Shown in pieces: positions 33,601-50,056 of a stretch of 55,771 bases of DNA (the first letter of the stretch is position 1; every line of letters begins with the position of its first letter). Source of the DNA: Alphaproteobacteria bacterium (lineage in GTDB: Bacteria; Pseudomonadota; Alphaproteobacteria; Micropepsales; Micropepsaceae); contig JACCXK010000137.1 of NCBI GenBank assembly GCA_013697055.1, forward strand, positions 1 to 55,771, written 5' to 3'. The notes under the pieces were generated by a model, which had not been told where the DNA came from, searched no databases, and saw only the letters and a program-made list of their open reading frames with translations. The position numbers and the translations under genes were made by a program.

Positions 33601-33763
33601 CAGCCTCTCGAACTCGAAGGCTAGGCCACTCCCGGACCGCGAAAAGCGAACCGATGTCCCGTCCCAGACCTCAAATCAGCGTTTGCAATTTGTTAACCAT
33701 ATTCCCTGAGAGTGGCGTGCTGTTTGTTTGGGACTGGGGGCTTCCATATTGGGGAGCTCTGTC

Positions 33764-35624: not shown

Positions 35625-35951
35625 TCGGTTAGAATGGTTGAATGCCGGGACCTTTGATTAAGCCGCCCGGGAGCTGGCATAGCCGGTCAAATAACACTAG
35701 TTTGGCATGACCGCTTTTGGCGCAAAGCAGACACTGGGCTAGCGCTGGCGGAATCGCATCTCCTGACCCATAGCTGACGTTCCTTGCCGCAATCAAATCG
35801 CCTAGTGAAGCTCGACAATTTCCAGTTGAGCCCCCCTCTGTTATATCAGTAAGCCAGAGGCTTGAGTTACAGCTGCCTTGTACGCGGGCACTGTTACAGT
35901 TAGCTGAATCCTGAGATTGCGAGGTTTTCGGTCCGGGGCTAGTGTCTGACG
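35625..35951. other. No gene; repeat copy F
   Basis: Holds the repeat at 35706-35783 and no supported coding frame. Confidence 0.5.
35706..35783 (+). repeat. Twin-hairpin repeat, copy F
   Basis: First hairpin ATGACCGCTTTTGGCGCAAA then GCAGACA; second degenerate, around CCTGACCCATAGC. Confidence 0.75.
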
Positions 35952-36146
35952 ATGGACGACAGCCACGCCAGCAGCGACGCCTACATCAATGGGTACAAAG
36001 ACGGCTGGCGATCCGTTCCTCGTAGCGGAACGCCTCCCCAGGTTCCAGGGTTCGTTTCCCCGCACTTTCTAGTGGAAGGGAAATCCCACTATGAATCCGG
36101 CTATGAGCGCGGGCGGACCGCAGCAGGAGGTAGCCCAAATGCCTGA
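35952..36146 (+). CDS. Small polar protein of unknown function
   Basis: This 64-residue frame (MDDSHASSDAYINGYKDGWR) has repeated GYxxGxR-like motifs (INGYKDGWRS and ESGYERGRT). It overlaps the next frame by about 55 bases, so one of the two starts may be wrong. No family recognised. Confidence 0.4.
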   Translation: MDDSHASSDAYINGYKDGWRSVPRSGTPPQVPGFVSPHFLVEGKSHYESGYERGRTAAGGSPNA

Positions 36147-36294
36147 AGTCCCCCAAGGCCCCACGCCGCTGCCGCCCGATGTGATCGGTAGCGCAAAGAT
36201 GACCAGCTTCGAAAACTCGCTCCGGTGGAACGTCATTGGCAGGGTTATCATTGCGGTGTTCGTGATAGCAGCATTTTGGTATTCCCACGTCTGA
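36091..36294 (+). CDS. Small C-terminally anchored membrane protein
   Basis: This frame of up to 67 residues, or about 51 from the internal ATG at 36139, has a Pro-rich start (VPQGPTPLPPDVIG) and a single C-terminal membrane span (VIGRVIIAVFVIAAFWYSHV). The shorter version begins near the end of the previous gene and fits better. Function unknown. Confidence 0.45.
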   Translation: MNPAMSAGGPQQEVAQMPEVPQGPTPLPPDVIGSAKMTSFENSLRWNVIGRVIIAVFVIAAFWYSHV

Positions 36295-36387
36295 CGCACC
36301 CAAACGCCAGCCTTGAACGCTACGATGACAGGGCGCGGAGAAAGGCCCCTTGTACCGGTGTTATGGGTCCAAACTGGCCGCATCTTG

Positions 36388-36464
36388 AATGACCGCTTTT
36401 GGCGCAAAGCGGACATTGGGCTGCCTAGGCCGGAATGACTGCTTTTGACCCAAAGCGGACATTA
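36388..36464 (+). repeat. Twin-hairpin repeat, copy G
   Basis: This is the best-kept copy: TGACCGCTTTTGGCGCAAAG then CGGACATT, a spacer with CTGCCTAGGCCGGAA, then TGCTTTTGACCCAAAGCGGA then CATT. Confidence 0.9.
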
Positions 36465-36583
36465 GGACGAAATGCGAGGGGAAGTCCGCACCGAGACCGT
36501 GCGATGCGCGAGTGGCCATGAAATCTGCGCCGAATTGCCTGGAAAGCAACCGCGACAAGATCCGAGTAACCAAATAATTGCAG

Positions 36584-37024
36584 CTAAAATTCAGAAGGAC
36601 GTGCGACTTTTTGAACCCCGTACAACTTTGCTATCGCATCAAAAATATCCACAATTTCCTCTGCGATGCTCAGTGCTTCGTCGTCATGCATCAACGCCGC
36701 CGTCGCAGCCACGTTCCCCTCTCCAAACTTAGCAGGAATGCACGTCAGTCGTTCGCGCACCGCATGTACTCGGCGCAAAATATCAGGGGTAACGTTCTCA
36801 CGGTTAAGGAGGCACAAACTAGATGTAAAAGCAGCGCCGATCCGTATTTGAAGACGTTCACTACCGGTCGCCATCCTGCGCACCGCCAGATAACTTTTCT
36901 CCCATGCATAGGCGAGACTAAAGGTTGGCAAAGTTACGTCTAACAATGGGTTCTTTCCCGCTGTGCCGGCAGAAACGGCGAGAGCGTCAACTACCTTGGG
37001 CAGCGTTGTGGTGCTGTAGACCAC
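36584..37024 (-). CDS. Protein of unknown function, third gene after the sensor kinase
   Basis: This 146-residue protein starts at GTG 37024, 21 bases after the receiver gene on the same strand. It appears all-helical and soluble, with LRRVHAVRERLTCIP and EALSIAEEIVDIFDAIAKLY. No family is recognised. Its position suggests a link to the two-component pair. Confidence 0.55.
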   Translation of the reverse strand: MVYSTTTLPKVVDALAVSAGTAGKNPLLDVTLPTFSLAYAWEKSYLAVRRMATGSERLQIRIGAAFTSSLCLLNRENVTPDILRRVHAVRERLTCIPAKFGEGNVAATAALMHDDEALSIAEEIVDIFDAIAKLYGVQKVARPSEF

Positions 37025-37045
37025 CTAAAGCCCAAAAGATACCCA

Positions 37046-37408
37046 TTACTTTAGGGCATCGCGTATCAAGCTGACGACATTGTCCACGTTATAAGGCTTG
37101 GGAAAGAAAGGATAACCCGGCGCAAGCTGTGAAGTTGTTTCGGCCTTACCGGTATTGCCGGACGCAAGGAAGACTGGAATTTTCGGATACTTATCGCGCA
37201 TCCAGAGCGCAAGCTGGAAGCCGTCCATCTTACCGGGCATCCGTATATCAGTAAGCACTAGATCGATTGTCAGCTCACCCTGCTCCAATATTTCGGCGGC
37301 TTCATCACCGCTGCCGGCTTCAACTACTTCGAAACCTGCTGACTCCAGAACCTCCGCAAGCACAAGACGAATAAGCACTTCGTCTTCAACTATCAAAATC
37401 CGGGACAA
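37046..37408 (-). CDS. Single-domain response regulator (CheY-like)
   Basis: This receiver of about 120 residues has the acidic pair in RILIVEDEVLIR, the phospho-Asp in DLVLTDIRMPG, and the conserved Lys in FPKPYNV. There is no output domain. I choose TTG 37408 because GGAGG lies five bases before it. The upstream ATG at 37492 would add 28 residues unlike the family. It pairs with the sensor kinase upstream. Confidence 0.9.
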   Translation of the reverse strand: MSRILIVEDEVLIRLVLAEVLESAGFEVVEAGSGDEAAEILEQGELTIDLVLTDIRMPGKMDGFQLALWMRDKYPKIPVFLASGNTGKAETTSQLAPGYPFFPKPYNVDNVVSLIRDALK

Positions 37409-37548
37409 GCTCGCCTCCGTAGACCCAACATGTATCGAAGCTGTTAAGAACGGCGGGAACGGGTAAGCGTTCCGAAGGGCGTAGGTCGCCATGCGTTTGA
37501 ATTTGTTGTTAAACCCACAATCAAAAGTTTCGGCTTCGCGCGTTCCTG

Positions 37549-38631
37549 TCAGGCAGTAAAAGTGACACAGAACTCCGAGCCGCGCCCTTTGCTCCGTGGA
37601 TTGGCAGTAAATTCGCCGCCGAGTTGTTTGGCTAGCAATCCAACGACCTTCATACCTAGTCCGGTTTTCGCCGTTTTGGGGTCAAACCCAGAGGGTAGTC
37701 CGCCGCCATGATCACTCACTGTAAGTATCCGTTGACTGCCCCTGATATGATACGACACGGCAATTGTGCCGTCGCCATGCTTTGCCGCGTTTGTAACCAG
37801 TTCGTTTACAATGAGGCCAACTGACTGCATCGTTTTCGCGGAAACCTCCTCATCGTCTCCCTCAACGACAATGGTTTTTCCTAGAACTCCCGACAGATCT
37901 TCACACAAGCGCCTTATAAATGCGAGGCAGTCGTTGCCATCGCCGACAATGCCCGCTGAAAAATGTCGATGAACGCGGGCAACCGTGGCGACGCGATTGG
38001 CTGCAACCTCAAGTTGGTGTGCAGCGTCGTTTCCTGGTGAACGACTTTGCATCGCCAGCATACTGGATACGAACTGAAGGCTGTTCATGACACGGTGGTC
38101 AATCTCCTGCGCTAAAGTCTGCGCTTGAGCCACTGCGGTTCGCGCGGAGAGCCGAAGCTCCAGCTGATCCATGACAATCGACGCAAGGTCGGTGAGATCA
38201 TCTATTTGGCCTTGGTCGATAGTCCGGGGCTGCTTGTCGATTACACACAGCGTTCCAAGGTTAAAGCCATCGCTCGTTTGCAAGGGGACACCAGCATAAA
38301 AGCGCAGCCCAAAATCGCCCGCAACAAGGGGATTGGCGAGCGAGCGGATATCGGTGCTGGCGTCTTCAAGAATGTGCGGGTCTTGCGTGAGGATGGCAGA
38401 CGCGCAGAGCCCAGGCTTGCGGTCAATCTGCTCCACCGGCAATCCATGATGCGATTTGAACCAGATACGGTCGGTGTCTACGACGCTGATTATCGCGATA
38501 GGTACGTTGAAGCGGCGTGCTGCTAGAGCGGTTATGCGATCAAAAGCGCCGTCTGGCGGCGTATCGAGGATATCGTAACGCCGTACCGCCATCATCCGCT
38601 GGGGCTCATTGATTGGAATGATGGCGTTCAT
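37549..38631 (-). CDS. GAF-domain sensor histidine kinase, HisKA_2/HWE type
   Basis: This 360-residue cytosolic kinase has a GAF domain at about residues 20-165 (NVPIAIISVVDTDRIWFKS and FYAGVPLQTSDGFNLGTLCVID). A HisKA_2-type dimerisation helix follows, with the His in EIDHRVMNSLQFVSSML near 190. The ATPase domain has NELVTNAAKHGDG and GLGMKVV. Kinases of this class feed the general stress response in alphaproteobacteria, which fits the EcfG-type promoters in this island. A receiver gene follows 140 bases later. Confidence 0.92.
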   Translation of the reverse strand: MNAIIPINEPQRMMAVRRYDILDTPPDGAFDRITALAARRFNVPIAIISVVDTDRIWFKSHHGLPVEQIDRKPGLCASAILTQDPHILEDASTDIRSLANPLVAGDFGLRFYAGVPLQTSDGFNLGTLCVIDKQPRTIDQGQIDDLTDLASIVMDQLELRLSARTAVAQAQTLAQEIDHRVMNSLQFVSSMLAMQSRSPGNDAAHQLEVAANRVATVARVHRHFSAGIVGDGNDCLAFIRRLCEDLSGVLGKTIVVEGDDEEVSAKTMQSVGLIVNELVTNAAKHGDGTIAVSYHIRGSQRILTVSDHGGGLPSGFDPKTAKTGLGMKVVGLLAKQLGGEFTANPRSKGRGSEFCVTFTA

Positions 38632-39029
38632 CTTGTCCTCTTCGCCCGTAAGGCGTGCAGACTAAGCCATCTGGGCAAAATATCTCAAGCCGCGATTGCC
38701 CCCCTAGTTGGCCACAGGAATCATGGATCGTGAACCTCTTAGGGGCACTCTCTGCTATTCCTTCCATGCAAGGCCGGCCATACGGACGGTTCCGTACGGT
38801 TGGCATGAACCGTTGATCAGAAGTGGAACGGTCGGCTTCCGGAATGGTCGCCGGAGTTGGGGCGATCCAAAATGCGCATTGCGAACTCCGCTTTTGGTGG
38901 AAGGACGTTGGCCTTACCAGAGCGGAAAGCCGCTTCTGACCCAAAGCGGACGTTGCTATTGCGATGACGGCCTGGAGGTAGGCGAAGATAAGCTTCGCCG
39001 AGCGACCTCGGCTTTTTGCTCCCACTCTG
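38632..39029. other. No gene; repeat copy H
   Basis: Contains the repeat at 38886-38955 and otherwise only short competing frames. Confidence 0.5.
38886..38955 (+). repeat. Twin-hairpin repeat, copy H
   Basis: The first hairpin is degenerate (CTCCGCTTTTGGTGGAAGGA). The second, GCCGCTTCTGACCCAAAGCG then GACGTT, is well kept. Confidence 0.7.
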
Positions 39030-39737
39030 TCAGGGAGAGCCGGTCAGTATGCTTTCCTTGCCAGCGACGGTGGTGGCTCTCAATTTATCTACGGCGTTCT
39101 GCAGGCTCTCGCTCGCAGATGCAGCCGTGAATCCCTGAACGATCCCTTCCTGTTTGATATCATCGAACACCTTCTCGGCGCGCTCACCGGCCTGGCTCGC
39201 AATATCACGGATCTGGTCCTTCACCTTAGCAGCGGCGGCTCCCGCCAGTTCCTGCTCGACGGCCGTAGAGGCAAACATGGACGCAATTCCAGCCCCGATA
39301 CCAGCGCCTACAATGCCTAAGAGGAGCGGCTGCGCTTCCAAGGTTACGGCGAAGTTCTTCTGTACGGAATTTCCGATCTGCCGCCCAACCTGGACGCCCG
39401 TGCGGGAGGCTTCCACTTTCGCCGACATAGCGGTATCGACGGCGCCTTCGACGCCCGCCTTGGCAGCGTCGCTGGCGTACTGCACCGCTTCATCGACCTT
39501 GCCAGCCACCTTGGCGGCAGCAGCCCCGGCACCTTCCGACGCACTCCGGAAACCGTCGGTGACAAACCGAGCCGCGCCCGGCAACGCATTTGAAAATGAA
39601 GCGATTTTCGTCTCGCCAAAGACCATCCATAGAATTCCGAGGCCAAGAAACCCCGCAGCAACGGGATTTTCGCGAATGGCGTTGTTCAACTGCTTCACGA
39701 AGGCGCCGCTAGTATTTGTGTTTGTAGCGATTGTCAT
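39030..39737 (-). CDS. Membrane-associated amphipathic helical protein, last gene of the DUF3618 operon
   Basis: This 235-residue protein starts at ATG 39737 (MTIATNTNTSGAFVKQL). It has hydrophobic segments at about 26-42 and 130-150 (LLLGIVGAGIGAGIASMFAS), separated by Ala/Lys/Glu-rich amphipathic helices (AAAAKVAGKVDEAVQYASDA). This apolipoprotein-like pattern is common in alphaproteobacterial stress genes. The start overlaps the holin-like gene by four bases. Confidence 0.7.
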   Translation of the reverse strand: MTIATNTNTSGAFVKQLNNAIRENPVAAGFLGLGILWMVFGETKIASFSNALPGAARFVTDGFRSASEGAGAAAAKVAGKVDEAVQYASDAAKAGVEGAVDTAMSAKVEASRTGVQVGRQIGNSVQKNFAVTLEAQPLLLGIVGAGIGAGIASMFASTAVEQELAGAAAAKVKDQIRDIASQAGERAEKVFDDIKQEGIVQGFTAASASESLQNAVDKLRATTVAGKESILTGSP

Positions 39738-40126
39738 TTGGCGAGGTTCCTTGCTGCGGCAACGTCCTGACTGAGCTGCTGCATGGTGTTCTTCAATTTG
39801 AGCCTTTTGGGGTTCAGCCGGCCTAAGCCGGTAACCAGAAATGCCGCGCTCAAAGCGCCTCCGACCACGGCGGATATGAGATAGGACAACGGCTCGGAGA
39901 TTCCCATCTGGGAAAGCCACGTCGCCAAGGCAAGTAGCACCATGGCAACAGCCGGAATCATCAAAACCCCGGCAACGACCAGCAATGCCGCGCCCCTTCC
40001 AGCCTCGTCTATCTTTTTGGACAACTCCGCCTGGGCAAGGCGCACCTCTGTTACAACCAGATGCCCCAGTTGATCGACCACATCGCCGAACAGGGCGGAA
40101 ATTGACTTGCTGTCGGTGGGTAACAT
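39734..40126 (-). CDS. Phage-holin-superfamily / DUF1469-like membrane protein
   Basis: This 130-residue protein has an amphipathic N-terminal helix (LGHLVVTEVRLAQAELSKKI) and two membrane hairpin segments (GAALLVVAGVLMIPAVAMVLL and YLISAVVGGALSAAFLVTG). It fits DUF1469 / putative actinobacterial holin-X, a chromosomal stress family, not an actual phage lysis gene. Confidence 0.85.
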   Translation of the reverse strand: MLPTDSKSISALFGDVVDQLGHLVVTEVRLAQAELSKKIDEAGRGAALLVVAGVLMIPAVAMVLLALATWLSQMGISEPLSYLISAVVGGALSAAFLVTGLGRLNPKRLKLKNTMQQLSQDVAAARNLAK

Positions 40127-40142
40127 TGCGCGCCTTCCTGGT

Positions 40143-40691
40143 TTACGATTGAGCAGGCGAGTTTATCGTGTCCGCCGTGACCTGAGCGGATGACGGAGGC
40201 GCACTTTTCAGGAAGCGCAACGCCGCAAAACCCAGGACAACGGCACCGCCGAAAAACAGCGCGGGTTGCCGCCGGGCAACATCTTCGACTTCTGTGATCA
40301 GCTCCCGCACATCGCGTTGACGTACGGCCTTGGCCACGGTGCTAAGCTCGCTGCCCGCCCGCCGGATGTAGCGCGCCGCCTGAGGGACGTCAGCCTCGAA
40401 CTCTCCCGCCGCGCGATGGATCGCGTGGGCCACCTTGTCGAGATATTCGGCGCCAACATTTTTCTGCTCACTGACGGCCGACTTCACCTTTTCGGTCGTG
40501 TCGTCAAGGATATCCTTCGCAGCATTTCCGATTTCGTCTGCTTCCTGCTTGGCGGCTTTGGTAACGGAATCCGCGACGGTCGATGCTGTCTGTTTCAAGT
40601 CGCTGCCGACCTGCCGTGCCTGCTCTGCCAGGCTCGCATTCGAGTCACCGCGCGAGGGGCCGTTATCAAATGACGTGTCCGAGATGGTCAT
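40143..40691 (-). CDS. Amphipathic membrane-anchored protein
   Basis: This 182-residue protein has long Ala/Lys/Asp/Glu-rich amphipathic helices (ASTVADSVTKAAKQEADEIG, KVKSAVSEQKNVGAEYLD) and one membrane span near the C-terminus (PALFFGGAVVLGFAALRFL). It resembles proteins that accompany DUF3618 and DUF1469 genes. It is the second gene of the operon, 12 bases after the DUF3618 gene. Confidence 0.7.
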   Translation of the reverse strand: MTISDTSFDNGPSRGDSNASLAEQARQVGSDLKQTASTVADSVTKAAKQEADEIGNAAKDILDDTTEKVKSAVSEQKNVGAEYLDKVAHAIHRAAGEFEADVPQAARYIRRAGSELSTVAKAVRQRDVRELITEVEDVARRQPALFFGGAVVLGFAALRFLKSAPPSSAQVTADTINSPAQS

Positions 40692-40703
40692 GAAAATTCT
40701 CCG

Positions 40704-41699
40704 TTAATTCAAGTTGGTAGGTGAAGCATCTGAGGCGAGTTCCGTCCCGGCGCCGTTCCCGAGCGCTGTCGTCAGGCCTTTATCCACGACCGCCTTGACC
40801 GCGACCGCCGTACCTTCGATCGTTTTAGAAAGCCCTTCGGTTGAGAGGCCTTCGCGAGCGGCGGCGGCGGCGATATCTCCCACAATGCCTGCGGCGGTGT
40901 CCTTAGCGCGCTCCACGCCCTGCGCGACCGCGCCGCGCGCGGAATCTTTGACGTCTTCGCTGGTTTCGCCGAACATTCTGTTTTCCGCTTCGGATATGGG
41001 AATAGATGCGGCAATGAACGCGCCCACCGCCAATGCAAGACCGCCGGCTACGAGCGGGTTTTTGTCGATTAGATCCTCGATGGCTGTCTTGGAGCGGACG
41101 GCTACCCGGGCGCCCGCGTCACCGAGATCAGACACGCTTGCAGATACCTTGTCCAAGGCCTCCGCAGAGGTTTCCTTCACGCTGCGACCCGCTTGGTTTG
41201 CCGTTCCCGTCGCAGAATCCAGGAGGTCTTGCGCCTTGTCGCTGACGGTATCCTTCATAGCGTTGACGCTGGCGACCATCGTGCCTTCGGCGTCTTTCAC
41301 CGATTGGGCCAGATCATTCGCCTTGTCGCTGACCGCTTGGGAAAGCTTTCCGTTGTTCTGTCTTGATAGCAAGACGCCGCCGCCGATGAGCAGCAACGGT
41401 ACCGGGATGGATTTCAAAATGCCCCACAAGGGGTAAGCGACCGCGGCCCCGATGGCGACAGCCTGGAGGGGGTTATCGTGTGCCTTGCGCTGGATGGACG
41501 AGAGAATCTGACTGCTTTCTTCGCGCACGAAGCCCTTGAACTCCTCCTTGATATGGGACGGCGACAGACGATCTTTCAGATCGTCGATGGTGCCGGCGAC
41601 CTTGCTGTTCAGCTCCAGCACCGAAGTCTCAAGGCCCTCGCGGGTGATCTCCGCCTCCCGGCTAAGCTGCCTTACCGAGTTCCCATTCTCTGAGATCAT
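40704..41699 (-). CDS. DUF3618-like membrane protein, first gene of a stress operon
   Basis: This protein of about 331 residues starts at ATG 41699, with GAGGAG nine bases upstream. The DUF3618-like N-terminus (REAEITREGLETSVLELNSK) is followed by a membrane span near 85-105, long amphipathic helices and another hydrophobic pair near 210-225 (PLVAGGLALAVGAFIAAS). It heads a four-gene minus-strand operon and has an EcfG-type promoter 47 bases before its start. Confidence 0.8.
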   Translation of the reverse strand: MISENGNSVRQLSREAEITREGLETSVLELNSKVAGTIDDLKDRLSPSHIKEEFKGFVREESSQILSSIQRKAHDNPLQAVAIGAAVAYPLWGILKSIPVPLLLIGGGVLLSRQNNGKLSQAVSDKANDLAQSVKDAEGTMVASVNAMKDTVSDKAQDLLDSATGTANQAGRSVKETSAEALDKVSASVSDLGDAGARVAVRSKTAIEDLIDKNPLVAGGLALAVGAFIAASIPISEAENRMFGETSEDVKDSARGAVAQGVERAKDTAAGIVGDIAAAAAREGLSTEGLSKTIEGTAVAVKAVVDKGLTTALGNGAGTELASDASPTNLN

Positions 41700-41743
41700 G
41701 CCAACAACTCCTCGGTCACGACTATGCTGAGATTGCCCGATAT

Positions 41744-41770
41744 GGAACACATCGCTCGGGAAAACGTTCC
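41744..41770. promoter_or_regulatory. Palindromic, bidirectional EcfG-type promoter
   Basis: On the plus strand GGAAC (41744-41748), 16 bases and CGTT (41765-41768). On the minus strand GGAAC (41770-41766), 17 bases and GTT (41748-41746). One 27-base site therefore offers -35 and -10 elements in both directions. The minus direction serves the DUF3618 operon. No confident gene lies in the plus direction. Confidence 0.7.
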
Positions 41771-42514
41771 GGGCGCGAAGCAGGTCCCTCGCGGTTCGCT
41801 TCCCTCGCGCCCTCAAGCGGAGACCCGGAGTGCAGTCACGCAATTGGGTGCAAATGCCGCTCCGCCCTCGGCCGTCGGCGGAAGGTGCGTTTATGTACTA
41901 CGGCACTACGCCAGCCCGGGCCCGCCCGGATCTCTATCAGCACAGGCAATGACGAAAACATGGAATGTTGGGCCAGGTTGCTGCTCGCCGATGCAAGGAC
42001 CGACATTCCAGAGCCTACGCTACGCTCGTTGGCCGACCTGGTTGGAGCCGTCTGCAATCGAGCCGGCGCCGCCATCCCAGCCGGCAGGGCCGCCAATCGA
42101 AACTCAGCCCGCAGGGCTGTCGCCGACACCCCAGCCGATTGGGCTGCAGCCGGTCTCTAAGCCAATAGCACTACCGCCGGACTCCGCTCCGAGCACGCTG
42201 CCGCCGGCTCCTGTGCCGGCCTCACTATAGCGACACGGCGTTGAGGTTGCCGTTGCACGGCGGTCACGTGACGCCCTGGCTCGCAAATCGCATGACGCGA
42301 TTGGGCGCTATTATCTCGCCAGCTATTATTCTTCATTATGGCCATGATGAATTTCTATCGCATTTTTAGTTTGACGCACCAAAGAGGCCGGATTCCTTCT
42401 GGCCTTTCTAGCAACGGCGATCACGATCGAAACTCCACGCAAAATGTGTCGGACCGGCATCCTGTGTCCGTTCTAAGGCCACCCTTGCTGGGGCAGTTTG
42501 GTTCCGCGTGAATA
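41771..42514. other. No confident gene downstream of the plus-strand EcfG site
   Basis: A plus-strand frame ending at 42230 is Pro-rich near its end (LSPTPQPIGLQPVSKPIALP), which could be a real protein tail, but its upstream part is not convincing. A hairpin GAGGCCGG/CTGGCCTTTC near 42384-42412 might end a plus-strand transcript. Confidence 0.35.
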
Positions 42515-43534
42515 TTAGTCAGCGAGTTTGGTGGACGCCTTGCGCGGCGGACGCGCCCTTGAGCCGGGACGATTAACCTTGGGCGAACGTTTCAAATCCA
42601 ACTCGCAAACGATTTCCGCTCCAGTTAGGAGAAGCACAATTGAAAGCCAAATCCATGTCAAAAAGCCCACCGCTCCGCCTAGCACTCCGTACGTACGGTC
42701 GTAACTGCCGAAATGGAGTGCGTACCATGTAAATAGCCAGGTTCCGAGGAGCCAGAAGAGGGCAGCAAAAGTGCTTCCCCAAGTAATCCAACACCACGGC
42801 GTTCGCACCCTATCTGGGCCATAGCGATAGATTACTGAGATTACTGAAGAACAAATACAAAAGCCCAGCGGCCATACCAAAATATTATAGGTCGTCTGCA
42901 GCAGCGTGCTGTGCTGGGACGCAATAAGTTTCTGAAGCGTGACACTTAAATAGATGACACCGGCTGCCAAGGTCACAACCACAACCGTCAGCAGCAACGT
43001 ACCGATAGTCAGCTTTAGAAAGCCTCGTGTTTCAACAGTCTCAAACGCAATGTTCAGACCGTCTATTATGGACTTTATCCCTCCACTCGCACTCCACACC
43101 GCAACTATGAACCCCAACGCGAATGTAAGATCCAGAGCAGCCGGCTTTGTGGCAATGAGGCGCTTTAATTCGGTCGAAATAACCAAAATAGCGCCCCCCG
43201 GAAGAAATCCCGATACCATCTGCAACCCTTCGAGGAGCGAGCTACGGTCCTCGAAGAAGCTGTAAAGAGAAACCACACAGGCAATGGCAGGAAAAATCGC
43301 TAGTAGAAAGAAAAAGGTGATGCCACCTGCCACTGCCGGGATACGGTCTTCTGAAAACTCGGAGTATATCCGTTTTGCTAACGTCACAAGATTCACAGCA
43401 CGGCGTGCTGTGCCTTTCCGAAGATAGACTGATGACCGAGCCCAAAAGCCGCGGATCACGGGAGCGAGGTCGTGGAGTAGAGCGCGAACTGGGCCAAGTG
43501 TGCCGCCCTTATCGAGTCTGGGGTGGCCCTTCAT
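42515..43534 (-). CDS. YihY/virulence factor BrkB family membrane protein
   Basis: This 339-residue protein has about six membrane spans. The family signature is AVAGGITFFFLLAIFPAIACVVSLY near residue 62, with FGSYDRTYGVLGGAVGFLTWIWLS near 275. Despite an old name linking it to RNase BN, the family is of unknown function and is often stress-related. It stands alone on the minus strand. Confidence 0.93.
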   Translation of the reverse strand: MKGHPRLDKGGTLGPVRALLHDLAPVIRGFWARSSVYLRKGTARRAVNLVTLAKRIYSEFSEDRIPAVAGGITFFFLLAIFPAIACVVSLYSFFEDRSSLLEGLQMVSGFLPGGAILVISTELKRLIATKPAALDLTFALGFIVAVWSASGGIKSIIDGLNIAFETVETRGFLKLTIGTLLLTVVVVTLAAGVIYLSVTLQKLIASQHSTLLQTTYNILVWPLGFCICSSVISVIYRYGPDRVRTPWCWITWGSTFAALFWLLGTWLFTWYALHFGSYDRTYGVLGGAVGFLTWIWLSIVLLLTGAEIVCELDLKRSPKVNRPGSRARPPRKASTKLAD

Positions 43535-43610
43535 AATTCTTCCTCGGCAAGAAATCGCGATGGGTCGGAGGGATCATGTCGCCGGTTCAAATTTTGAGCC
43601 CAGCGAGATT

Positions 43611-43856
43611 CTACTGTGATGTTGTGGAAGCACTCGGCTGGACGAGGCCTTTTCCTGCACGCCATTCCTCCGCCTGTTCCCGAGTCCATCCCGCGGGCCA
43701 AGAAATGTCAGTCCCATTACTCAAGATTCTTGGCTCGGTGAAGCGGTGGCAAGAACAATAAAGATCGACATACCCTGCGATAGGGTCTGAGCACACCTGA
43801 ACATCCTCTTCGGACATGCAGCCGGGTTCATGCGCGTCAGGATCGGGGTACCGCAT
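43611..43856 (-). CDS. Small Cys-containing protein of unknown function
   Basis: This 81-residue frame starts at ATG 43856 (MRYPDPDAHEPGCMSEEDVQ). It contains Cys residues in VCSDPIAGYVDLYCSCHRF and an amphipathic WTREQAEEWRAGKG. It reads like a real protein, but there is no ribosome site and no known family. Confidence 0.4.
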   Translation of the reverse strand: MRYPDPDAHEPGCMSEEDVQVCSDPIAGYVDLYCSCHRFTEPRILSNGTDISWPAGWTREQAEEWRAGKGLVQPSASTTSQ

Positions 43857-43988
43857 TTTACGAGTCAGGAGATCAGTGAGTGCCAAAACAAGTACCCGGG
43901 ATGAGGCTAGGAGGATATTCCAAAGCAACGCGCCGGGTGCCACTTGGTGCCTTTTCTGCCACCAGGCCGGTCTCGCCCGCCGGGTCGT

Positions 43989-44013
43989 GGAACCATGGCT
44001 ACAACAAGGCGTT
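43989..44013 (+). promoter_or_regulatory. EcfG-type promoter before the membrane microprotein pair
   Basis: GGAAC (43989-43993), a 16-base spacer and CGTT (44010-44013). The microprotein start codon follows 57 bases after the -10 element. Confidence 0.75.
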
Positions 44014-44070
44014 TGCAAGGCGCGCCGCAATTCAGGCGGACTTTAGAAGTTTTCAAAACTGGAGACAGAA

Positions 44071-44145
44071 ATGCACGGAATCATTTATCTTGTAGGTCTC
44101 GTAGTCGTCGTGCTGGCAGTTCTCTCATTCATTGGAATTCACTGA
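44071..44145 (+). CDS. 24-residue membrane microprotein
   Basis: ATG 44071 follows GGAGACAGAA. The peptide starts MHGIIYLVGLVVVVLAV and ends SFIGIH, one membrane span with short ends. Its stop TGA overlaps the next ATG by one base (TGATG), so the next gene is translationally coupled. It lies directly downstream of an EcfG-type promoter. A close relative is seen at 26440. Confidence 0.65.
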   Translation: MHGIIYLVGLVVVVLAVLSFIGIH

Positions 44146-44993
44146 TGAGCGCGGTGGGAGAGACCACGGCTGCCATCCGCAGTTCTCATTTCCAATGGCC
44201 TGCGATTTTCGGTGGCGCGGTAGCTGCCGCGGGAGTCTCTTTCACCCTACATTCGTTCGCGGCAGGCGTCGGGCTGTCGGTTCTTTCCACGGCGCCGACT
44301 TGGCGGGACTCGAACGCGTTTTACTGGGTGGTTTGCGGCCTGTATCTTCTGTTCGTGTCTCTTTGTGCATTCGCGTTGGGCGGCTACATCGCCGGCCGCA
44401 TGCGGTCGCCCTTAAACATTGGTTCGGCGGAGGCGGAATTCCGCGACGGAATGCACGGCCTTGTAACGTGGGGGCTTGCGATTCTAATGACAGCGGCACT
44501 AGCGCTCGGCGCGGGTGCTATTGCCTCCCAGGCGGTCGCACCCTCGGGCGGTTCTACCGGAGCCGCTCAGTCGGTCGCGGGTGAAAACATCATAGCATCT
44601 GAATTGGATGAACTGTTCCGGGCTCAGCGTCTCCCTGCAGACCTAGTTTATCGTCGCGCCGAAGCTGCGAGGATATTGTTGAAGGCCTCTAGTCATGACG
44701 GCATTCCTCGAGAGGACAAAACCTACCTTAGCGCCATGGTAGGTAGCACCACTGGCATCGGGCCCAGTGAAGCCACCGCGCGGGTGGATCGGGAAATCGA
44801 AGCTTCTACGCGAGAACTACGCCGTGCGCGGATCGCGTCAGTTTTACAAGCGTTCTTCGTCGGTGCGGCGTTGCTTGTTGGTGCGGCCGTAGCTTGGTTC
44901 ACAGCTGAGGAGGGTGGCCGTGATCGAGAGGCAAACCGGTTGTTTATATGGGAAGGCTTCCCTCGTACTCGTGCCCGGTCCCAGCGGACATAG
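44145..44993 (+). CDS. Multi-span membrane protein of unknown function
   Basis: This 282-residue protein starts at ATG 44145, coupled to the microprotein. It has four membrane segments: WPAIFGGAVAAAGVSFTLHS, FYWVVCGLYLLFVSLCAFAL, LVTWGLAILMTAALALGAGA and a C-terminal VLQAFFVGAALLVGAAVAWF. A soluble helical loop of about 110 residues separates the third and fourth. No named family is recognised. The upstream promoter suggests a stress role. Confidence 0.75.
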   Translation: MSAVGETTAAIRSSHFQWPAIFGGAVAAAGVSFTLHSFAAGVGLSVLSTAPTWRDSNAFYWVVCGLYLLFVSLCAFALGGYIAGRMRSPLNIGSAEAEFRDGMHGLVTWGLAILMTAALALGAGAIASQAVAPSGGSTGAAQSVAGENIIASELDELFRAQRLPADLVYRRAEAARILLKASSHDGIPREDKTYLSAMVGSTTGIGPSEATARVDREIEASTRELRRARIASVLQAFFVGAALLVGAAVAWFTAEEGGRDREANRLFIWEGFPRTRARSQRT

Positions 44994-45153
44994 ATGACAA
45001 TCAGCCGCTTTTAATAGTCGTTTACGAACAGTCGCTGTCTATTGTGGTGATGCATTGATCCACTCGTTTATTTTGATTCAAGTGTTTAATCAGATCGGTT
45101 TAGAAGGCCCGCTGGCGCGGGAGAATTATGATTGAGCGACACCGGATTAGATA

Positions 45154-46110
45154 ATGAAACTTGCTGGAAGTCCGCAGCTTAGGCCACGCCATGCTATAGG
45201 AGGCCAATCCGTCACATGCGTGATCAATGGATCGGCTAGGTCGAACGGCGCTTCCGAAGCGAAACAGCGGGTTGTTGAGCTATTCAGGTTACGCGGTCGG
45301 GAGGTCAACGTAGTGTTGGCTGAAAACGGAAGTGACATTCCAGAAATCGTAAGGCGCGCCATATCGGAACGCAGCACCGTTGTTGTGGCAGCCGGCGGCG
45401 ACGGCACCGTCAATGCAGTGGCTTCAGTCGTGCTGGGTAGCCATGCTGCATTGGGTGTGTTGCCGCTCGGTACGCTCAATCACTTCGCCAAAGACTTGGG
45501 CATCCCCATGGATTTAGAGGAGGCGGTCGAAACCGTGATAAACGGGTCCACCATCCATGTGGACGTGGGCAAAGTGAATGAGAGTATCTTTCTAAACAAC
45601 TCCAGTCTCGGCCTTTATCCCGCCATCGTACGCCACCGAGAAGACATCCAGAAAAAGGGCCATGGGAAATGGTGGGCCTTTGCGGTTGCGACCGTACAAG
45701 TGCTCCGGCGGTATCAACGGCTCTACGTACGATGGAAAATAGAGGGCAAGCCAGAGGTCAGCGAAGAGACCCCGTTTGTTTTCATAGGAAATAATCAATA
45801 CGAAGTCTGCGGCTTGCGGATTGGGAAAAGGGACTGTGTAGATGCGGGAAAACTGTGGGTATACCGCGCACCCCAGGCAAGCCGGTCATCACTGCTTCGT
45901 CTAGCCATCGACGCATTCCGAGGAAAGTTCGATACGCGCGAACTAGCGACCTTTGCCACCGATACGTTGAGCATCCGGACGCAGAAGAACCATGTACACG
46001 TGGCCACGGACGGCGAAGTCCAAACCATGCGAGGTACATTAAACTATTCTATCCTTCCGAAGGGTCTAAGTGTCATCGTCCCTCAGACGCGAGTTTCTAA
46101 ACCGGGTTAG
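45154..46110 (+). CDS. Diacylglycerol/sphingosine kinase-family lipid kinase
   Basis: This 318-residue protein has the nucleotide motif VVVAAGGDGTVNAVAS near residue 75, GVLPLGTLNHFAKDLGIP near 104 and HVDVGKVNESIFLNNSSLGLYP near 135. These define the DgkB/YegS kinase fold, which phosphorylates lipids. It is followed nine bases later by a phosphoesterase and then a PAP2 phosphatase, suggesting a lipid-phosphate module. Confidence 0.9.
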   Translation: MKLAGSPQLRPRHAIGGQSVTCVINGSARSNGASEAKQRVVELFRLRGREVNVVLAENGSDIPEIVRRAISERSTVVVAAGGDGTVNAVASVVLGSHAALGVLPLGTLNHFAKDLGIPMDLEEAVETVINGSTIHVDVGKVNESIFLNNSSLGLYPAIVRHREDIQKKGHGKWWAFAVATVQVLRRYQRLYVRWKIEGKPEVSEETPFVFIGNNQYEVCGLRIGKRDCVDAGKLWVYRAPQASRSSLLRLAIDAFRGKFDTRELATFATDTLSIRTQKNHVHVATDGEVQTMRGTLNYSILPKGLSVIVPQTRVSKPG

Positions 46111-46119
46111 GCGGTCCTA

Positions 46120-46926
46120 TTGCGAACAATCGCGCATATCTCTGACCTCCATTTCGGGCGCGTAAATTGCGCCATACTTCCTGCACTCACTGCTGTAATC
46201 AACGCTGTGCGGCCGGACGTTGTTGCAGTTTCTGGCGATTTGACACAGCGCGCGCGTTCCAAGGAGTTTGGAGCTGCGCGCGAATTCTTGGCCACTCTTC
46301 CCGAGCCGCAGATAGTGGTGCCAGGCAACCATGATGTCCCGTTGTACGATATTTTTAGACGTTGGTGGTCACCACTTAAGAGATATCGCAAATATATCAG
46401 CGACGACCTAGAACCGTTTTTCGCCGATGAAGAGATCGCCGTATTAGGCGTCAACACAGCACGATCATTCACGTTCAAAAACGGTCGCATCAACGCAATA
46501 CAGGTGGCGAACAGCTGCAATCGCCTTGGTAAAGGGGCCCAGAATGGCGTCCGCATCCTTGTTACCCATCACCCATTCGGTGTGGAGGAACGGGGCGGCG
46601 CAGATATTGTTGGGCGAGCCGATATGGCAATGACTGAGTTCGCGCGATGCCGCATCGACGTGATCCTGACCGGACATCTTCATGTCAGCGGCATCAGCAG
46701 TAGTGCAGCCCATTATGCTCTGCCTGGCTATTCCGCCCTCTTCATTCACGCTGGTACGGCGACTTCGGTTCGTCAGCGCGGCGAAGTGAACGCCTGGAAT
46801 CTCATACACATAGATGGCGAAGCGATTTCGGTCGACTGTTTTGTCTGGGACGCGACCCATCAGAAATTCACAATCACAAAAACCTCTAACTTCAGACGAG
46901 GCCCAGAAGGCTGGTCTGAAGCTTGA
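46120..46926 (+). CDS. Metallophosphoesterase, cyclic-nucleotide/phospholipid type
   Basis: This 268-residue enzyme starts at TTG 46120. The metal motifs are in order: HISDLHFG, VSGDLTQRAR, VPGNHDVP, VTHHPFG and LTGHLHVSG. The set matches class III phosphodiesterases such as CpdA/GpdQ. Its stop overlaps the start of the PAP2 gene (TGATG). Confidence 0.92.
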   Translation: MRTIAHISDLHFGRVNCAILPALTAVINAVRPDVVAVSGDLTQRARSKEFGAAREFLATLPEPQIVVPGNHDVPLYDIFRRWWSPLKRYRKYISDDLEPFFADEEIAVLGVNTARSFTFKNGRINAIQVANSCNRLGKGAQNGVRILVTHHPFGVEERGGADIVGRADMAMTEFARCRIDVILTGHLHVSGISSSAAHYALPGYSALFIHAGTATSVRQRGEVNAWNLIHIDGEAISVDCFVWDATHQKFTITKTSNFRRGPEGWSEA

Positions 46927-47561
46927 TGAATCGGCGGCGCAAGGATATGTGCAATAAAGACGCTCGTCCTTTATCTGTTGTCGTCCCGGCTCTAGCCCTC
47001 ACAGCGTTTGTCGTCCTTGCAGAAGCGGTTATGCGCGGCGCCACCGTGCAATGGGACAATGCGGCTCGTGCCCTAGTTCATGAAGCGGCGGGGCCGCATC
47101 TAACTTCTTTGGCTACAACCGTAAGTAATTTCGGCAGGCTTTTCGTATTAATTCCTGCGACCGCGGCCGTCGTCGGCTGGCTTCTATGGGTTAGGTGGAA
47201 CTCGTCTGCCATAGCTCTAGGGACGACGATGAGTGGTGCCCTCTTGCTAAATTGGGTACTCAAAGCCGCCGTCCACCGCGCTCGTCCAGTGGCCTATTTC
47301 GGTACGGATCCAGAGTCCTTGAGCTTTCCCAGCGGCCATGTCTTCTTTGCTGTGTCATTTTACGGAGCAATCTGCCTGGTTCTCGCCAGCCACCGGAAGC
47401 TCACGCCACTTGTTACTATCCTCAGCACGCTGCTCGTTGGGACGGTAGCCTGGTCACGGGTCTACCTAGGCGTTCACTATCCCACAGACGTTGCAGCGGG
47501 CTTGCTCGTCGGCGTCTTCTGGCTCGGCGTGCTGGCTGTTTCCGGCCTGTTCTCAGAGTGA
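46926..47561 (+). CDS. PAP2-family membrane phosphatase
   Basis: This 211-residue protein starts at ATG 46926, coupled to the phosphoesterase. The three PAP2 motifs are KAAVHRARP, SFPSGH and SRVYLGVHYPTDV, with about five membrane spans. It probably removes phosphate from membrane lipids such as phosphatidate or undecaprenyl diphosphate. With the lipid kinase it forms a kinase-esterase-phosphatase operon. Confidence 0.93.
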   Translation: MNRRRKDMCNKDARPLSVVVPALALTAFVVLAEAVMRGATVQWDNAARALVHEAAGPHLTSLATTVSNFGRLFVLIPATAAVVGWLLWVRWNSSAIALGTTMSGALLLNWVLKAAVHRARPVAYFGTDPESLSFPSGHVFFAVSFYGAICLVLASHRKLTPLVTILSTLLVGTVAWSRVYLGVHYPTDVAAGLLVGVFWLGVLAVSGLFSE

Positions 47562-47650
47562 AGTTCCCACAGACTCTGAGTGAGGGATACCAGTTCTGGA
47601 GCGCTGGAACGTCCGGGTCTCACCACGGAACTTGTCGTTCGAGACCTTAA

Positions 47651-48148
47651 ACCGCGGGCCTCGGCAATAGGACCGGCGTCTGTGAGCATATCGAGTTAGG
47701 TTCGCATCAAATCCAGGTTGTCGCACTGGCAAAAGCGTTGGGAGTGACGGTCAGCCAAATCTTTGCGACAAACGCAATCTTCGTAGCAACGCGCGGTTCT
47801 GACGAACTTAGCGCTTTGGACGTACCCCGTCTCTGGTCTCAGTGTTGGAAAGTGCATCGACGATTTCTTGCTGAAATGCAGCCGCAAATGATCATTGGGC
47901 TCGGTAATGGTGAGATGAGCGCATTTGCCTTGTTAAAATCCGTTGCAAGCGCTTGGACAGAGATTCCAAACCCAAACCGCGAGCCCAAGAGGCAATGGAA
48001 AGCGGGCCATGCGACTTTACCCTTATTTGACGGAGAAGCGTTGTCAGTTCGCATTGTGGGATTACCTCATCCCAGCAAGTCGCGCATTTTCGGAAGCTTG
48101 GTGGAAAACTTTAAGGCGTACGAAGCCACGGTAAATGAGCGAGTTTGA
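47651..48148 (+). pseudogene. Fragment of a uracil-DNA-glycosylase-like protein
   Basis: The frame is open from 47651, but no start with a ribosome site is seen. The first usable codon is TTG 47738. ALAKALGVTVSQIFATNAIFV and QPQMIIGLGNGEMSAFALLK followed by LPHPSKSRIFG fit the C-terminal half of the uracil-DNA-glycosylase superfamily (HPS-like motif). The N-terminal catalytic part is missing, so it is probably a remnant. The family call is tentative. Confidence 0.45.
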
Positions 48149-48228
48149 AAGTTGACACGCAACGACACCTACCTTGCAACACACCCCCTCCTCCGCACCT
48201 ATTTGTATTAACTTTAAAGGACCACACG

Positions 48229-48444
48229 ATGGCTATTGTTCTTTCACTTATCATTGCGGTAGTAGGTTTCGGCTTCGCAATGGCTTTTATCTTCGGACCG
48301 AAGGCGCCCGTCAGAAGTGATGTAGAGAATGTCACGGGCAAGAAACTCTCTCCCTACACTGCTGGTCTGCTGCATCGTCGTTTTGGTGGATGGGAACGAG
48401 CTGATCCGCATGCAAAAGCGGGAATTGTTCCAGCGCCAGCGTGA
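48229..48444 (+). CDS. Small N-terminally anchored membrane protein
   Basis: This 71-residue frame starts at ATG 48229 with AAAGG upstream. It begins MAIVLSLIIAVVGFGFAMAF, one membrane span, and then a polar tail. An overlapping frame at 48329-48520 has a highly charged C-terminus (RMQKRELFQRQRDREKEASR) and could be the true end after a frameshift. Function unknown. Confidence 0.45.
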   Translation: MAIVLSLIIAVVGFGFAMAFIFGPKAPVRSDVENVTGKKLSPYTAGLLHRRFGGWERADPHAKAGIVPAPA

Positions 48445-48568
48445 TCGTGAGAAGGAAGCGAGTCGGCGTTTTGCTGAGCATATGGATCGCACCTTGAATA
48501 GCGATCCGCGCGATAAATGATCCGTTTTAAGGCCTGAATGTGTTGCGAGAAAAGGCATAAGTTGCTCC

Positions 48569-48597
48569 TTTCTCCGACGCATTTCTCGGTCTATAAA
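48569..48597 (+). promoter_or_regulatory. Putative housekeeping promoter of the intron-bearing tRNA-Leu
   Basis: TTTCTC (48569-48574), 17 bases and TATAAA (48592-48597) lie eight bases before the tRNA. This suggests the replacement tRNA does not depend on host flanking DNA. Confidence 0.45.
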
Positions 48598-48605
48598 GAT
48601 GCTCT

Positions 48606-48891
48606 GCGGGCATGGCGGAATGGTAGACGCACCGGACTTATGCAATTGAGTGCCCTTGGGGAAACCCTTGGAGTAGAACTGCCCAAATTCGGGGAACCCT
48701 TCACTGGCAATCCCGAGCCAAGCCCAGCAATGGGAAGGTGTAGAGACTAGACGGGCAGCACCTAAAGCGGAGACGCTACGGTGAAGGGATAGTCCAGACC
48801 ACGAACGCCATCAGGCGGCGGCGAAAGTCGAAGTGGTATGAAAATCCGTTGGGCCGCAAGGCCTGTGCCAGTTCAAGTCTGGCTGCCCGTA
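48606..48891 (+). tRNA. tRNA-Leu(UAA) interrupted by a group I intron
   Basis: Exon 1 is 48606-48639 and exon 2 is 48841-48891. Spliced, they give an 85-nt class II tRNA: acceptor GCGGGCA/TGCCCGT (with one G-U), D-arm, anticodon loop CTTAAAA (anticodon UAA), variable arm GGGCC-GCAA-GGCCT, T-arm GCCAG/CTGGC and discriminator A. CCA is not encoded, unlike the split host gene. The acceptor, variable and T-arms differ from the host tRNA-Leu(UAA), so it is not a duplicate of it. It lies about 1.1 kb inside the right end of the island and probably replaces the tRNA the island broke. Confidence 0.93.
48640..48840 (+). ncRNA. Group I self-splicing intron (201 nt)
   Basis: The exon ends in U at position 34 and the intron ends in G, as required. 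The internal guide GAGTGCC (48648-48654) pairs with exon GGACTT through a U-G splice-site pair, with one bulge. Conserved core elements are P (48685-48697), Q (AATCCCGAGCCAAGCC, 48709-48724), R (GGTGTAGAGACTAGACGG, 48737-48754) and S (AAGGGATAGTCC, 48784-48795). The size and insertion site match the cyanobacterial tRNA-Leu(UAA) class. No homing endonuclease is encoded. Confidence 0.93.
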
Positions 48892-49116
48892 GATCACAAT
48901 GGTGCCTTCGCTCGGACGGCCCCCCATAAATTCAGCCATTTAAAATGACCCGCGGAAGTCACACTTCCGTCGACATGACCCGGCGCGCCGCGCCGCTGGG
49001 ATGCGCGCCAATAACGGGTCAGTGCGGGTCCAGTGTCCGAATATTATTGCAGCTCCCGTTGGCGGGAACACCGTTCGGGTCCCGATAGTGGGCCCCTTGT
49101 GTGTATTGCAGGGTAA

Positions 49117-49827
49117 GATGGCCGCGCGCAAATTATCTATTCGAAAGACCACAACAATCGAGGCTTCGAAAATTTCAGCGTTTCCCATGAGCTGGGCCAT
49201 TATTTCTTGCCAGGGCATCCTGAGGAAATTCAGCGCCAGGGGGGTACCCATCTCTCGCGCGCGAACTTCACCGAAGCATCTTCTATCGAGCTCGAGGCCG
49301 ACCATTTCGCCGCTGGTCTTTTGCTACCGTCTAAACTTACAACCAAGTTTCTCGACCGCCACCAAGTGGGGCTCGAAGGCATTATCGCGCTTGCCGCCAA
49401 GGCTGAATGTTCACATACGGCCGCAGCGATTGCCGCTGCAGAATGTGCGAGCTATCCGATCGCGGTGATTATGAGCCGGGACGCGTCCATCGCGTACGCG
49501 TTTTTGTCGGATAAGTTTAAGTCCCTTGGGCAGTTGGCGTTCCTCCAAAAAGGAAGTCCTTTGCCGAATGGCTTAACTCGGACATTCAACGCCACGCCTG
49601 CCAAGGTGCAGGCCGGCGAGCGAGCATGCGGGCAGACTCACATTGGCGAGTGGTTTGGCGGCCCGAGCGGCATCGCGCTCGACGAAGAGTTGATTGGCCT
49701 CGGAAACTACGGGTTCACGCTCACCGTCCTATCAACCGAAGACCCCGCGCCTGCCTCGGATGAAGAAGAGGACGAAGACGCCGACCTTGAAACGTCCTGG
49801 ACCCCCAAATTCGCATATGGACGCTAG
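49117..49827 (+). pseudogene. ImmA/IrrE-type metallopeptidase, truncated at the N-terminus
   Basis: After a stop at 49114-49116 the frame reads DGRAQIIYSKDHNNRGF and then NFSVSHELGHYFLPGH, with the zinc motif HELGH. ASSIELEADHFAAGLLLP, a typical ImmA/IrrE second part, follows. The only later start (TTG 49207) would remove the catalytic motif, and no start lies upstream in frame. This is therefore most likely the remains of a phage- or ICE-type repressor-cleaving protease. The C-terminus is acidic. Confidence 0.75.
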
Positions 49828-49916
49828 TGTGTTTCGCGCTCATCGCACAGGACAAGAGCTAACAAGTCACGATGCGAAATAACCCAAGCATCCATGTTGC
49901 AACCATCACAACGGAG

Positions 49917-49936
49917 ACTACCCGGTTTGACTACCC
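49917..49936 (+). promoter_or_regulatory. Tandem ACTACCC motifs, putative right arm-type recombinase sites
   Basis: GACTACCCG occurs twice, 13 bases apart, 63-83 bases inside the right core. It mirrors the pair at the left end (25494-25511) in spacing and orientation. Confidence 0.5.
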
Positions 49937-49994
49937 GACAATTGACCGTTGCCAGAAATAATCTTCTAGTCAGCCGCTTAAGGCCCAGACGAAC

Positions 49995-50007
49995 CTGTAC
50001 TTAAAAT
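49995..50007 (+). other. attR core
   Basis: The island arm CTGTA is joined to the host anticodon loop CTTAAAA and the 3' side of the host stem (TCCGT). Confidence 0.85.
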
Positions 50008-50056
50008 CCGTTGTTCCGAAAGGGACGTGTCTGTTCGACTCAGACTGGGGCCACCA
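50000..50056 (+). pseudogene. 3' half of the split host tRNA-Leu(UAA)
   Basis: It holds the anticodon loop, the 3' anticodon stem, variable arm GTTCC-GAAA-GGGAC, T-arm GTCTG/CAGAC, acceptor strand TGGGGCC, discriminator A and CCA. It has no promoter of its own. It completes the half at 25398. A hairpin AGCTTTTCT/AGAAAAGCT follows at 50063-50096 and is probably the old tRNA terminator. Confidence 0.95.

Follow-up and report, generated by a model that had tools for sequence, protein, structure and literature searches.

A group I intron at the presumed crossover of a replacement tRNA-Leu(UAA) gene probably protects the spare gene from the integrase of its own genomic island

How can a genomic island that breaks a host transfer RNA (tRNA) gene carry a working replacement which its own integrase would leave alone? 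This question is raised by a window of 55,771 nucleotides (nt), the whole stretch of DNA analyzed here (contig JACCXK010000137.1 of assembly GCA_013697055.1), from an alphaproteobacterium of the family Micropepsaceae. In this window, a 24.6-kb island divides the intronless host tRNA-Leu(UAA) gene, a neighbor of rpsD, at a repeat that contains the anticodon-loop sequence CTTAAAA. In a second tRNA-Leu(UAA) gene, at 48606-48891, CTT and AAAA of the anticodon loop are separated by a group I intron of 201 nt. The answer we favor, and consider probable, is tRNA-dependent integration with a spare tRNA gene that is proof against the integrase, the proofing of the Leu(UAA) spare being provided by the intron. 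Group I introns in tRNA genes are usually seen as ancient or selfish passengers, useless to their carrier. If our reading is correct, such a ribozyme would have a clear job for a mobile element, namely hiding a gene from a recombinase at the DNA level while leaving the RNA product unaltered.

The interrupted gene consists of a 5' exon at 48606..48639 with the last bases GGACTT, the intron at 48640..48840 with a final G and a 3' exon at 48841..48891 running from AAAATCC through A73, all on the plus strand. The exon/intron boundaries at 48639/48640 and 48840/48841 bear out the intron position given in an earlier reading of the sequence (the original prediction). Its suggestion that group I identity be checked with covariance models is answered by Rfam model RF00028, which matches over its full length (model 1-253 of 253) at 48630-48820 with 49.3 bits and an E-value of 1.3e-11. 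The gathering score of this model is 50, and a strict scan therefore comes back empty for an intron lying 0.7 bit below it, though the match is far from chance; it is the sole group I match of the genome at a threshold of E 0.001. The intron is conserved and covaries in relatives, with compensatory changes in 17 of 51 predicted pairs and a terminal G in all 20 of the aligned introns of the window type. As read from the same alignment, the ACUU ending the 5' exon can pair with an invariant GAGU starting at intron base 9, which places a U-G pair at the splice site. The joined exons, with CCA added by us, score as tRNA-Leu(taa) in ARAGORN, and the unspliced gene is not detected by a standard tRNA scan. 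The intron is presumed to be spliced in the cell. Unlike most intron genes compared, the replacement gene does not encode CCA, and its closing pair is G1-U72 (48890-48893). The missing CCA had been read as a mark of foreign source; this does not hold in that simple form, most intron-bearing tRNA-Leu(UAA) genes elsewhere encoding CCA. The window's gene may have drifted, and its tRNA would depend on the CCA-adding enzyme.

The 5' half of the host gene, on the attL side, lies at 25398..25436 (plus strand, start at 25398 or 25399) and the 3' half, with an encoded CCA, on the attR side at 50000..50056 (plus strand). When rejoined, the two halves are called by ARAGORN as tRNA-Leu(taa) with encoded CCA, while neither island junction alone yields a tRNA: the host gene is not rebuilt by the island. 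The direct repeat of 9 base pairs (bp), ACTTAAAAT, is found at 25429..25437 on the left and 49999..50007 on the right (both plus strand), with the 7-nt loop CTTAAAA inside it at 25430-25436 and 50000-50006. The deduced attP core, CTGTA-CTTAAAA-TACAG, is a perfect 5-bp inverted repeat flanking the seven-base loop. Both features agree with the proposal that CTTAAAA is the seven-base exchange region, although the sequence does not reveal the exact crossover position. At 31919-31926, a third ACTTAAAA is without tRNA context and was regarded as a chance occurrence. Using patterns for the intact gene and for its 5' part, no intact tRNA-Leu(UAA) was found in the window's genome (G000, a 97% complete assembly), where only the split half was matched. 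A genome-wide scan returned 35 tRNAs with Leu CAA, CAG and TAG among the long ones, the scan being incomplete (no Leu(GAG)) and typing having covered the six long tRNAs and one other. TTA accounts for 8 of 3385 codons in seven long frames outside the island, one of which was compared with a protein family. As TTA is used there, though rarely, the host probably needs tRNA-Leu(UAA), if rarely.

We propose that the island would have entered by tyrosine-integrase recombination across the CTTAAAA anticodon loop, breaking the host tRNA-Leu(UAA) gene without rebuilding it and bringing in the replacement. A working replacement would share the anticodon loop, and without an interruption it would be open to the integrase as well. 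The integrase would cut at the loop borders, and an intron between CTT and AAAA would widen the distance between the half-sites from 7 to about 208 bp and thereby block it. Splicing at the RNA level would restore an ordinary tRNA, and the spare would be essential to the host. Elements at tRNA-Leu(CAA) would reach the same end by base changes in loop or stem.

If the intron gene replaces a broken host gene, how are the two distributed among relatives? The genus set of 60 genomes (59 relatives and the window's genome) was screened for group I introns and for intact intronless tRNA-Leu(UAA). An intron gene is present in 11 of them (G000, G004, G005, G010, G020, G022, G024, G026, G029, G031 and G036). 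None of these 11 has an intact intronless gene, compared with 41 of the 49 others (Fisher p 2e-7, with relatives not independent and the two genes partly alternative states by nature, which tempers the value). Of the intact genes, 40 matched the search pattern and were all called tRNA-Leu(taa), as was the one in G014, which is one base off the pattern. An apparent intact intronless gene in G031 turned out to be attR, its 5' part being island sequence without an ARAGORN tRNA call. The remaining eight genomes comprise G001 with a split half at a contig end, G053 with a split gene and a broken spare, G055 with a split gene and a spare that runs into the contig end, and G003, G011, G034, G037 and G057, in which neither the intron nor the intact intronless form was found.

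The original prediction had tied the intron to the island and regarded wide occurrence off islands in close relatives as the sign of a coincidence. The tie holds for 8 of the 11 intron genomes, where a split intronless tRNA-Leu(UAA) lies on the same contig as the intron gene (about 0.08 to 2.2 kb away in seven genomes and 23 kb in the window), and for G024, where a decayed integrase is found directly upstream of one of two intron copies; no element is seen in G005 and G020. The two G024 copies are located at G024:C124 and G024:C146 (L188-L190), one adjoining rpsD and the other behind the decayed integrase, on the lpd side. In G005 and G020, the intron gene occupies the native locus, adjoining lpd and, by its upstream flank, near rpsD (in G020 at 1.6 kb, with another gene between), without a split half or integrase in the surrounding 8.5 and 39 kb, respectively; G005 has an integrase fragment on another contig. 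The introns of both genomes fall among element introns (support 88/86 and 87/83, branches not starred), and their genes are perhaps fixed derivatives of elements. The native locus together with this placement suggests that an element spare can become a resident gene. The native neighbor of tRNA-Leu(UAA) in the genus is rpsD, which lies no more than about 0.6 kb from the split half in G000, G004, G010, G022, G026 and G029; of the 26 intact tRNA-Leu(UAA) loci whose flanks were read for 1.5 kb, 14 have it there.

What does a complete element look like? Four relatives (G004, G022, G026 and G029) have the same order: an intronless 5' half, about 0.1 kb of spacer, a tyrosine integrase of 418-463 amino acids, at most 0.1 kb of spacer, the intron-bearing tRNA-Leu(UAA) and then cargo. 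The matching 3' half marks the other end of the element; it shares the contig in G022 and G029 and is found on a separate contig in G004 and G026. Where both ends share a contig, islands span about 26 kb (G022), 28 kb (G029) and 15 kb (G031). The right ends of the four elements have repeated CTAGCACA-like motifs left of the core, which are possibly arm sites. In the DNA read, the integrase is decayed in G024, is broken and inverted in G036, and is lacking from G031, G010 and the window. The intron tRNA has nevertheless been kept in all of these, which would be expected of an essential tRNA accompanied by a dispensable integrase. At G036:C3:153800-156400 (L196, L197 and L234), the integrase is in two pieces, the first of which is inverted together with the split tRNA half relative to the intron tRNA. 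Outside the genus, an integrase of the same family is located directly upstream of an intron tRNA in records named Bradyrhizobium lablabi, Devosia, Caulobacter, Sphingomonadales and Hyphomicrobiales, and upstream of one in Granulicella, Edaphobacter (frameshifted) and other Acidobacteria records. At several of the named Alphaproteobacteria and Acidobacteriota loci, a split intronless half precedes the integrase and the intron tRNA.

To avoid selecting for introns, an integrase alignment (A1) was used as query against 385 genomes of the class, 69 of the genus, 398 of the phylum and IMG/VR. As A1 was built from intron elements, G004, G022, G026 and G029 match by construction and make up 4 of the 12 Leu(UAA) elements found. 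Among the 39 genus integrase rows, 20 weaker than 1e-80 were dropped, being fragments (including pieces in G005, G024, G036 and G055) and other subfamilies, and three good relatives of six IMG/VR loci were kept, the other three being dropped. The 42 integrases kept are associated with split Leu(UAA) (12), split Leu(CAA) (7), Leu(UAG) (2), intact fMet-like tRNA-Met (15), intact Arg (1), a Lys-like half (1), a tandem second integrase (2) or no visible target (2). Spares were sought within 1.5 kb or less of the integrase. A downstream intron replacement tRNA is found in 11 of the 12 split Leu(UAA) elements, or 7 of 8 without the four seeds. Eight of the 11 were recovered by script (including the truncated one, L222 of G053), two (L214 and L223) run off the contig inside the intron, and the spare of G425, found by looking further, lies at about 2.1 kb. 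In the DNA read, none of the 12 has an intronless Leu(UAA) spare.

Spares without introns are found where the target is another leucine tRNA. Six of the seven Leu(CAA) elements have an intronless Leu(CAA) spare, the seventh stopping at a contig edge, and both Leu(UAG) cases (L215 and L231) have an intronless Leu(UAG) spare. Of the elements at intact tRNA-Met or Arg genes, 15 of 16 have no further tRNA within 1.5 kb and one has a downstream tRNA. A non-rebuilt target is thus accompanied by a spare in 19 of 21 cases as against 1 of 16 for intact targets (p 2e-7), in 18 of 21 when the same 1.5 kb is applied throughout (p 1e-6) and in 14 of 16 when the seeds and L231 are excluded (p 7e-6), all values being uncorrected for kinship. 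Spares, then, go with targets that are not rebuilt. For these counts, the target half of L206 was added from sequence, the L215 target was read by eye and L208 was judged on wider DNA; L231, with its target end off the contig, was scored as non-restoring from the spare alone, while L250 and L253, both integrases of a single tandem, share one spare.

The most informative comparison is between each target and its spare. The named loci were excluded as evidence for loop and inner stem because their search pattern fixes the 3' exon (12 more such pairs look alike), leaving 14 Leu(UAA) pairs found without an exon pattern, 8 via Rfam and 6 via the integrase; two of them, G055 and G382, have their 3' exon beyond the contig end. 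Target and intron spare share the inner three bases of the 5' stem in 12 of the 14 and the whole five-base 5' stem in 7. The loop after splicing would be CTTAAAA, as in the target, in all 12 pairs readable on both sides. In contrast, inner stem plus loop agree in none of the six intronless Leu(CAA) pairs: four have the loop TTCAAAA where the target has CTCAAAA, and two have a stem change. Inner-stem agreement in 12 of 14 intron pairs versus 0 of 6 intronless pairs gives p 7e-4, and the whole stem p 0.05 (both uncorrected for kinship). The shielding of the replacement tRNA by its intron, as originally predicted, is supported chiefly by these spares, since every intronless Leu(CAA) spare compared has changed where most intron spares have not. 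The most economical reading for both kinds is that the integrase of an element must be unable to use that element's spare as a substrate. For tyrosine integrases, overlap mismatches are typically strongly deleterious, with exceptions, according to the available part of a study on tRNA-dependent lysogeny (PMC10865867).

The Leu(CAA) change can be as small as one base. In L256, target and spare differ at a single position across 12 compared (C32 versus T32), and the T32 change is a possible single-base escape from the integrase. The loop TTCAAAA in place of the host's CTCAAAA is seen in the replacement tRNA-Leu(CAA) of L243, L244, L250, L256 and L316 (G441:C21, around 4554-4807). An intact Leu(CAA) pattern was matched in 22 of the 69 genus genomes, with the rare T32 allele in three, including the known spares of G004 and G047. 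G441, found from the T32 allele alone, has a split C32 half 196 bp upstream with a one-base difference in the compared stretch and no integrase within 10 kb; having been selected by the allele, it was left out of the six pairs. Beside C32 control genes, no split half was found in any of 18 cases (up to about 2 kb on each side where the contig allows, the G021 spare excluded).

Several observations weigh against an integrase-proofing role of the intron. The window's island has no recognizable integrase: a PF00589 search of the whole genome gave 10 matches, none on the window's contig, and nothing was found when 30 reading frames, of which 26 lie inside the island, were scanned with Pfam, although three tested element integrases fall just below the PF00589 cut-off. 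Likewise, tblastn with four element integrases and one broken one found no match in the assembly, and the A1 profile none in G000. The tyrosine integrase expected of tRNA-dependent integration is thus not recognized in this island and is present in related elements, and the island would belong to the element family by its split target, the likeness of its intron and the pattern in the genus. The window's intron tRNA also lies near attR, 1.1 kb away with an M78 peptidase frame between, instead of behind an integrase at attL as in relatives; a second, decayed tandem element is a possible cause, and no inner att site was found in the island. Among surveyed elements, L255 has a split target and no replacement in the 2.16 kb up to the contig end. 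G053:C67 (L296; L222) combines a split target and a full-length integrase with a replacement from which the 5' exon and the first half of the intron are missing, and the patterns matched no further tRNA-Leu(UAA) in that genome. In two of the 14 pairs (G036 and G382) the inner stem differs too, and the intron is therefore not always the sole difference. The elements are related, so that the counts are not independent. Finally, 72 of 102 Leu(UAA) introns among the matches listed lack both an integrase and a split half within the flanks read, while 30 are near one or the other. These 102 comprise 86 loci (among the matches listed) from a pattern scan of named genomes, which returned at least 119 loci and selects for introns, so that its proportions are not a census, and 16 from other genomes; the 86 are those that passed the test for a Leu(UAA) intron gene. 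Of 135 candidates, 33 failed the Leu-exon rule; an integrase module is present in at least one of these, L043. The Leu(UAA) intron is, then, also an ordinary resident.

Could the intron therefore be a frozen accident, an ancestral element having captured its tRNA-Leu(UAA) from an intron-bearing lineage, with the spare complementing the broken gene and the intron a passenger without any role in integration? We regard this as unlikely, though it is the strongest of the alternatives. Element-free introns are common, with groups among the matches listed in Bacteroidota, Rhodobacterales and Rhizobiaceae records as well as in Burkholderiales, and the element integrases in the alignment share ancestry (50-75% identity to the first of them), so that a single capture could explain much. 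However, element introns are scattered on the intron tree, where they interleave with the others through 17 changes, at least six of them forced by starred branches (the bootstrap had not settled). The nearest rows to the window are G010, a Bradyrhizobium element and G026, a grouping supported by no starred branch. A passenger intron also leaves the lack of intronless Leu(UAA) spares in the 12 surveyed elements unexplained, intronless genes dominating the genus, and it does not account for the altered loops and stems of all six intronless Leu(CAA) spares. Integrase-proofing fits these observations better, and a wider form of it, on which we are evenly divided, holds that the intron is a selected integrase-proofing ribozyme spread between phyla, with part of the resident tRNA-Leu(UAA) introns of Pseudomonadota and Acidobacteriota being fixed element fossils from which the rest of the element has been lost. 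Element cargo would, if so, offer a route for tRNA introns to move between bacteria.

A selfish intron spreading into anticodon loops by its own homing, and overlapping the island core by coincidence, is very improbable here. Homing into tRNA anticodon loops is known for a cyanobacterial tRNA-fMet intron, which speaks for such a route. Yet the 201-nt intron at 48640-48840 is too short to hold a homing endonuclease gene, and in elements with a whole integrase the intron mostly follows it at near-constant spacing, the exception being G425 at about 2.1 kb. Least probable of all is that spares evolve to evade anticodon nucleases or toxins of the host or of rival elements: loop changes do occur in Leu(CAA) spares and such escape is reported for phage tRNAs in the title of one study, but an intron removed from the RNA would leave a mature loop identical to that of the target in every readable pair and would not protect the mature tRNA.

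The proposed system resembles several known ones without coinciding with any. Tyrosine integrases with replacement tRNAs are described as tRNA-dependent lysogeny (Guerrero-Bustamante and Hatfull 2024, PMC10865867), whose cases include tRNA-Leu(CAA); in the part of that paper available, the system is one of actinobacteriophages, whereas the elements here are islands in Alphaproteobacteria and Acidobacteria records with an intron at the presumed crossover. In the same part, introns are mentioned once, in the title of a reference, and the discussion leaves aside how the phage tRNA avoids its integrase; integrase-proofing would answer this question. Prophages of Sinorhizobium meliloti, likewise alphaproteobacterial elements, disrupt tRNA-Leu(UAG) and supply a foreign tRNA in its place (PMC11476347); they are paralleled by the Leu(UAG) spares L215 and L231, but the main text of that report, as far as available, makes no mention of an intron. 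Cyanobacterial and plastid tRNA-Leu(UAA) group I introns interrupt the same isoacceptor and are described as ancestral residents in the available part of their account (PMC4033280), whereas those studied here are cargo of islands targeting the intronless form. Classical anticodon-loop islands share the anticodon-centered attP and the tyrosine integrase, as given in the available part of the Islander description (PMC4383910), and the fMet elements of our survey resemble them; those islands rebuild the tRNA, while the Leu elements leave it broken and bring a complete spare gene. Intron-bearing tRNA genes were already known from alpha- and betaproteobacteria. Among the literature covered, mostly titles and abstract openings with subscription literature mostly outside, we recognized no work that connects site-specific integration with a group I intron inside a tRNA gene carried as cargo.

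The remaining features of the window are those of the island's surroundings and cargo. The rpsD gene (ribosomal protein S4; Pfam Ribosomal_S4 and S4) lies at 24252..24863 on the minus strand, and its product is 80% identical to the RpsD of G024. The island interior spans 25438..49998, in which no tyrosine integrase was recognized. The frame between the intron tRNA and attR, at 49132..49827 on the plus strand, encodes a seemingly truncated IrrE/ImmA-like M78 peptidase (PF06114, E 4.8e-7, profile positions 31-118 of 123). Other island genes include those for YidB-like, DUF3597, DUF2127, cytochrome c, histidine kinase, BrkB-like, diacylglycerol kinase-like and PAP2 proteins; among the protein families found by the Pfam scans, none is indicative of transfer.

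Further group I matches in which no tRNA-Leu(UAA) exon was seen are located at G005:C16 (L147), G065:C438 (L131), G065:C374 (L145) and G020:C19 (L148). In a phage collection, no relative of the G029 integrase was found at E 1e-30. A plasmid collection contained four relatives, all from Alphaproteobacteria (E 1e-50), one of them behind an intact tRNA-Met gene and the other three without an adjoining tRNA in ARAGORN. At L209-L213, L216, L226-L229, L246, L248, L249, L251 and L252, the integrase lies about 0.1-0.23 kb behind an intact initiator-like tRNA-Met, and among these loci only L216 has a second tRNA-Met downstream (within 1.5 kb). In L254, from IMG/VR, an integrase of the same family follows the 3' half of a tRNA-Lys-like gene, and the family may use a Lys target too.
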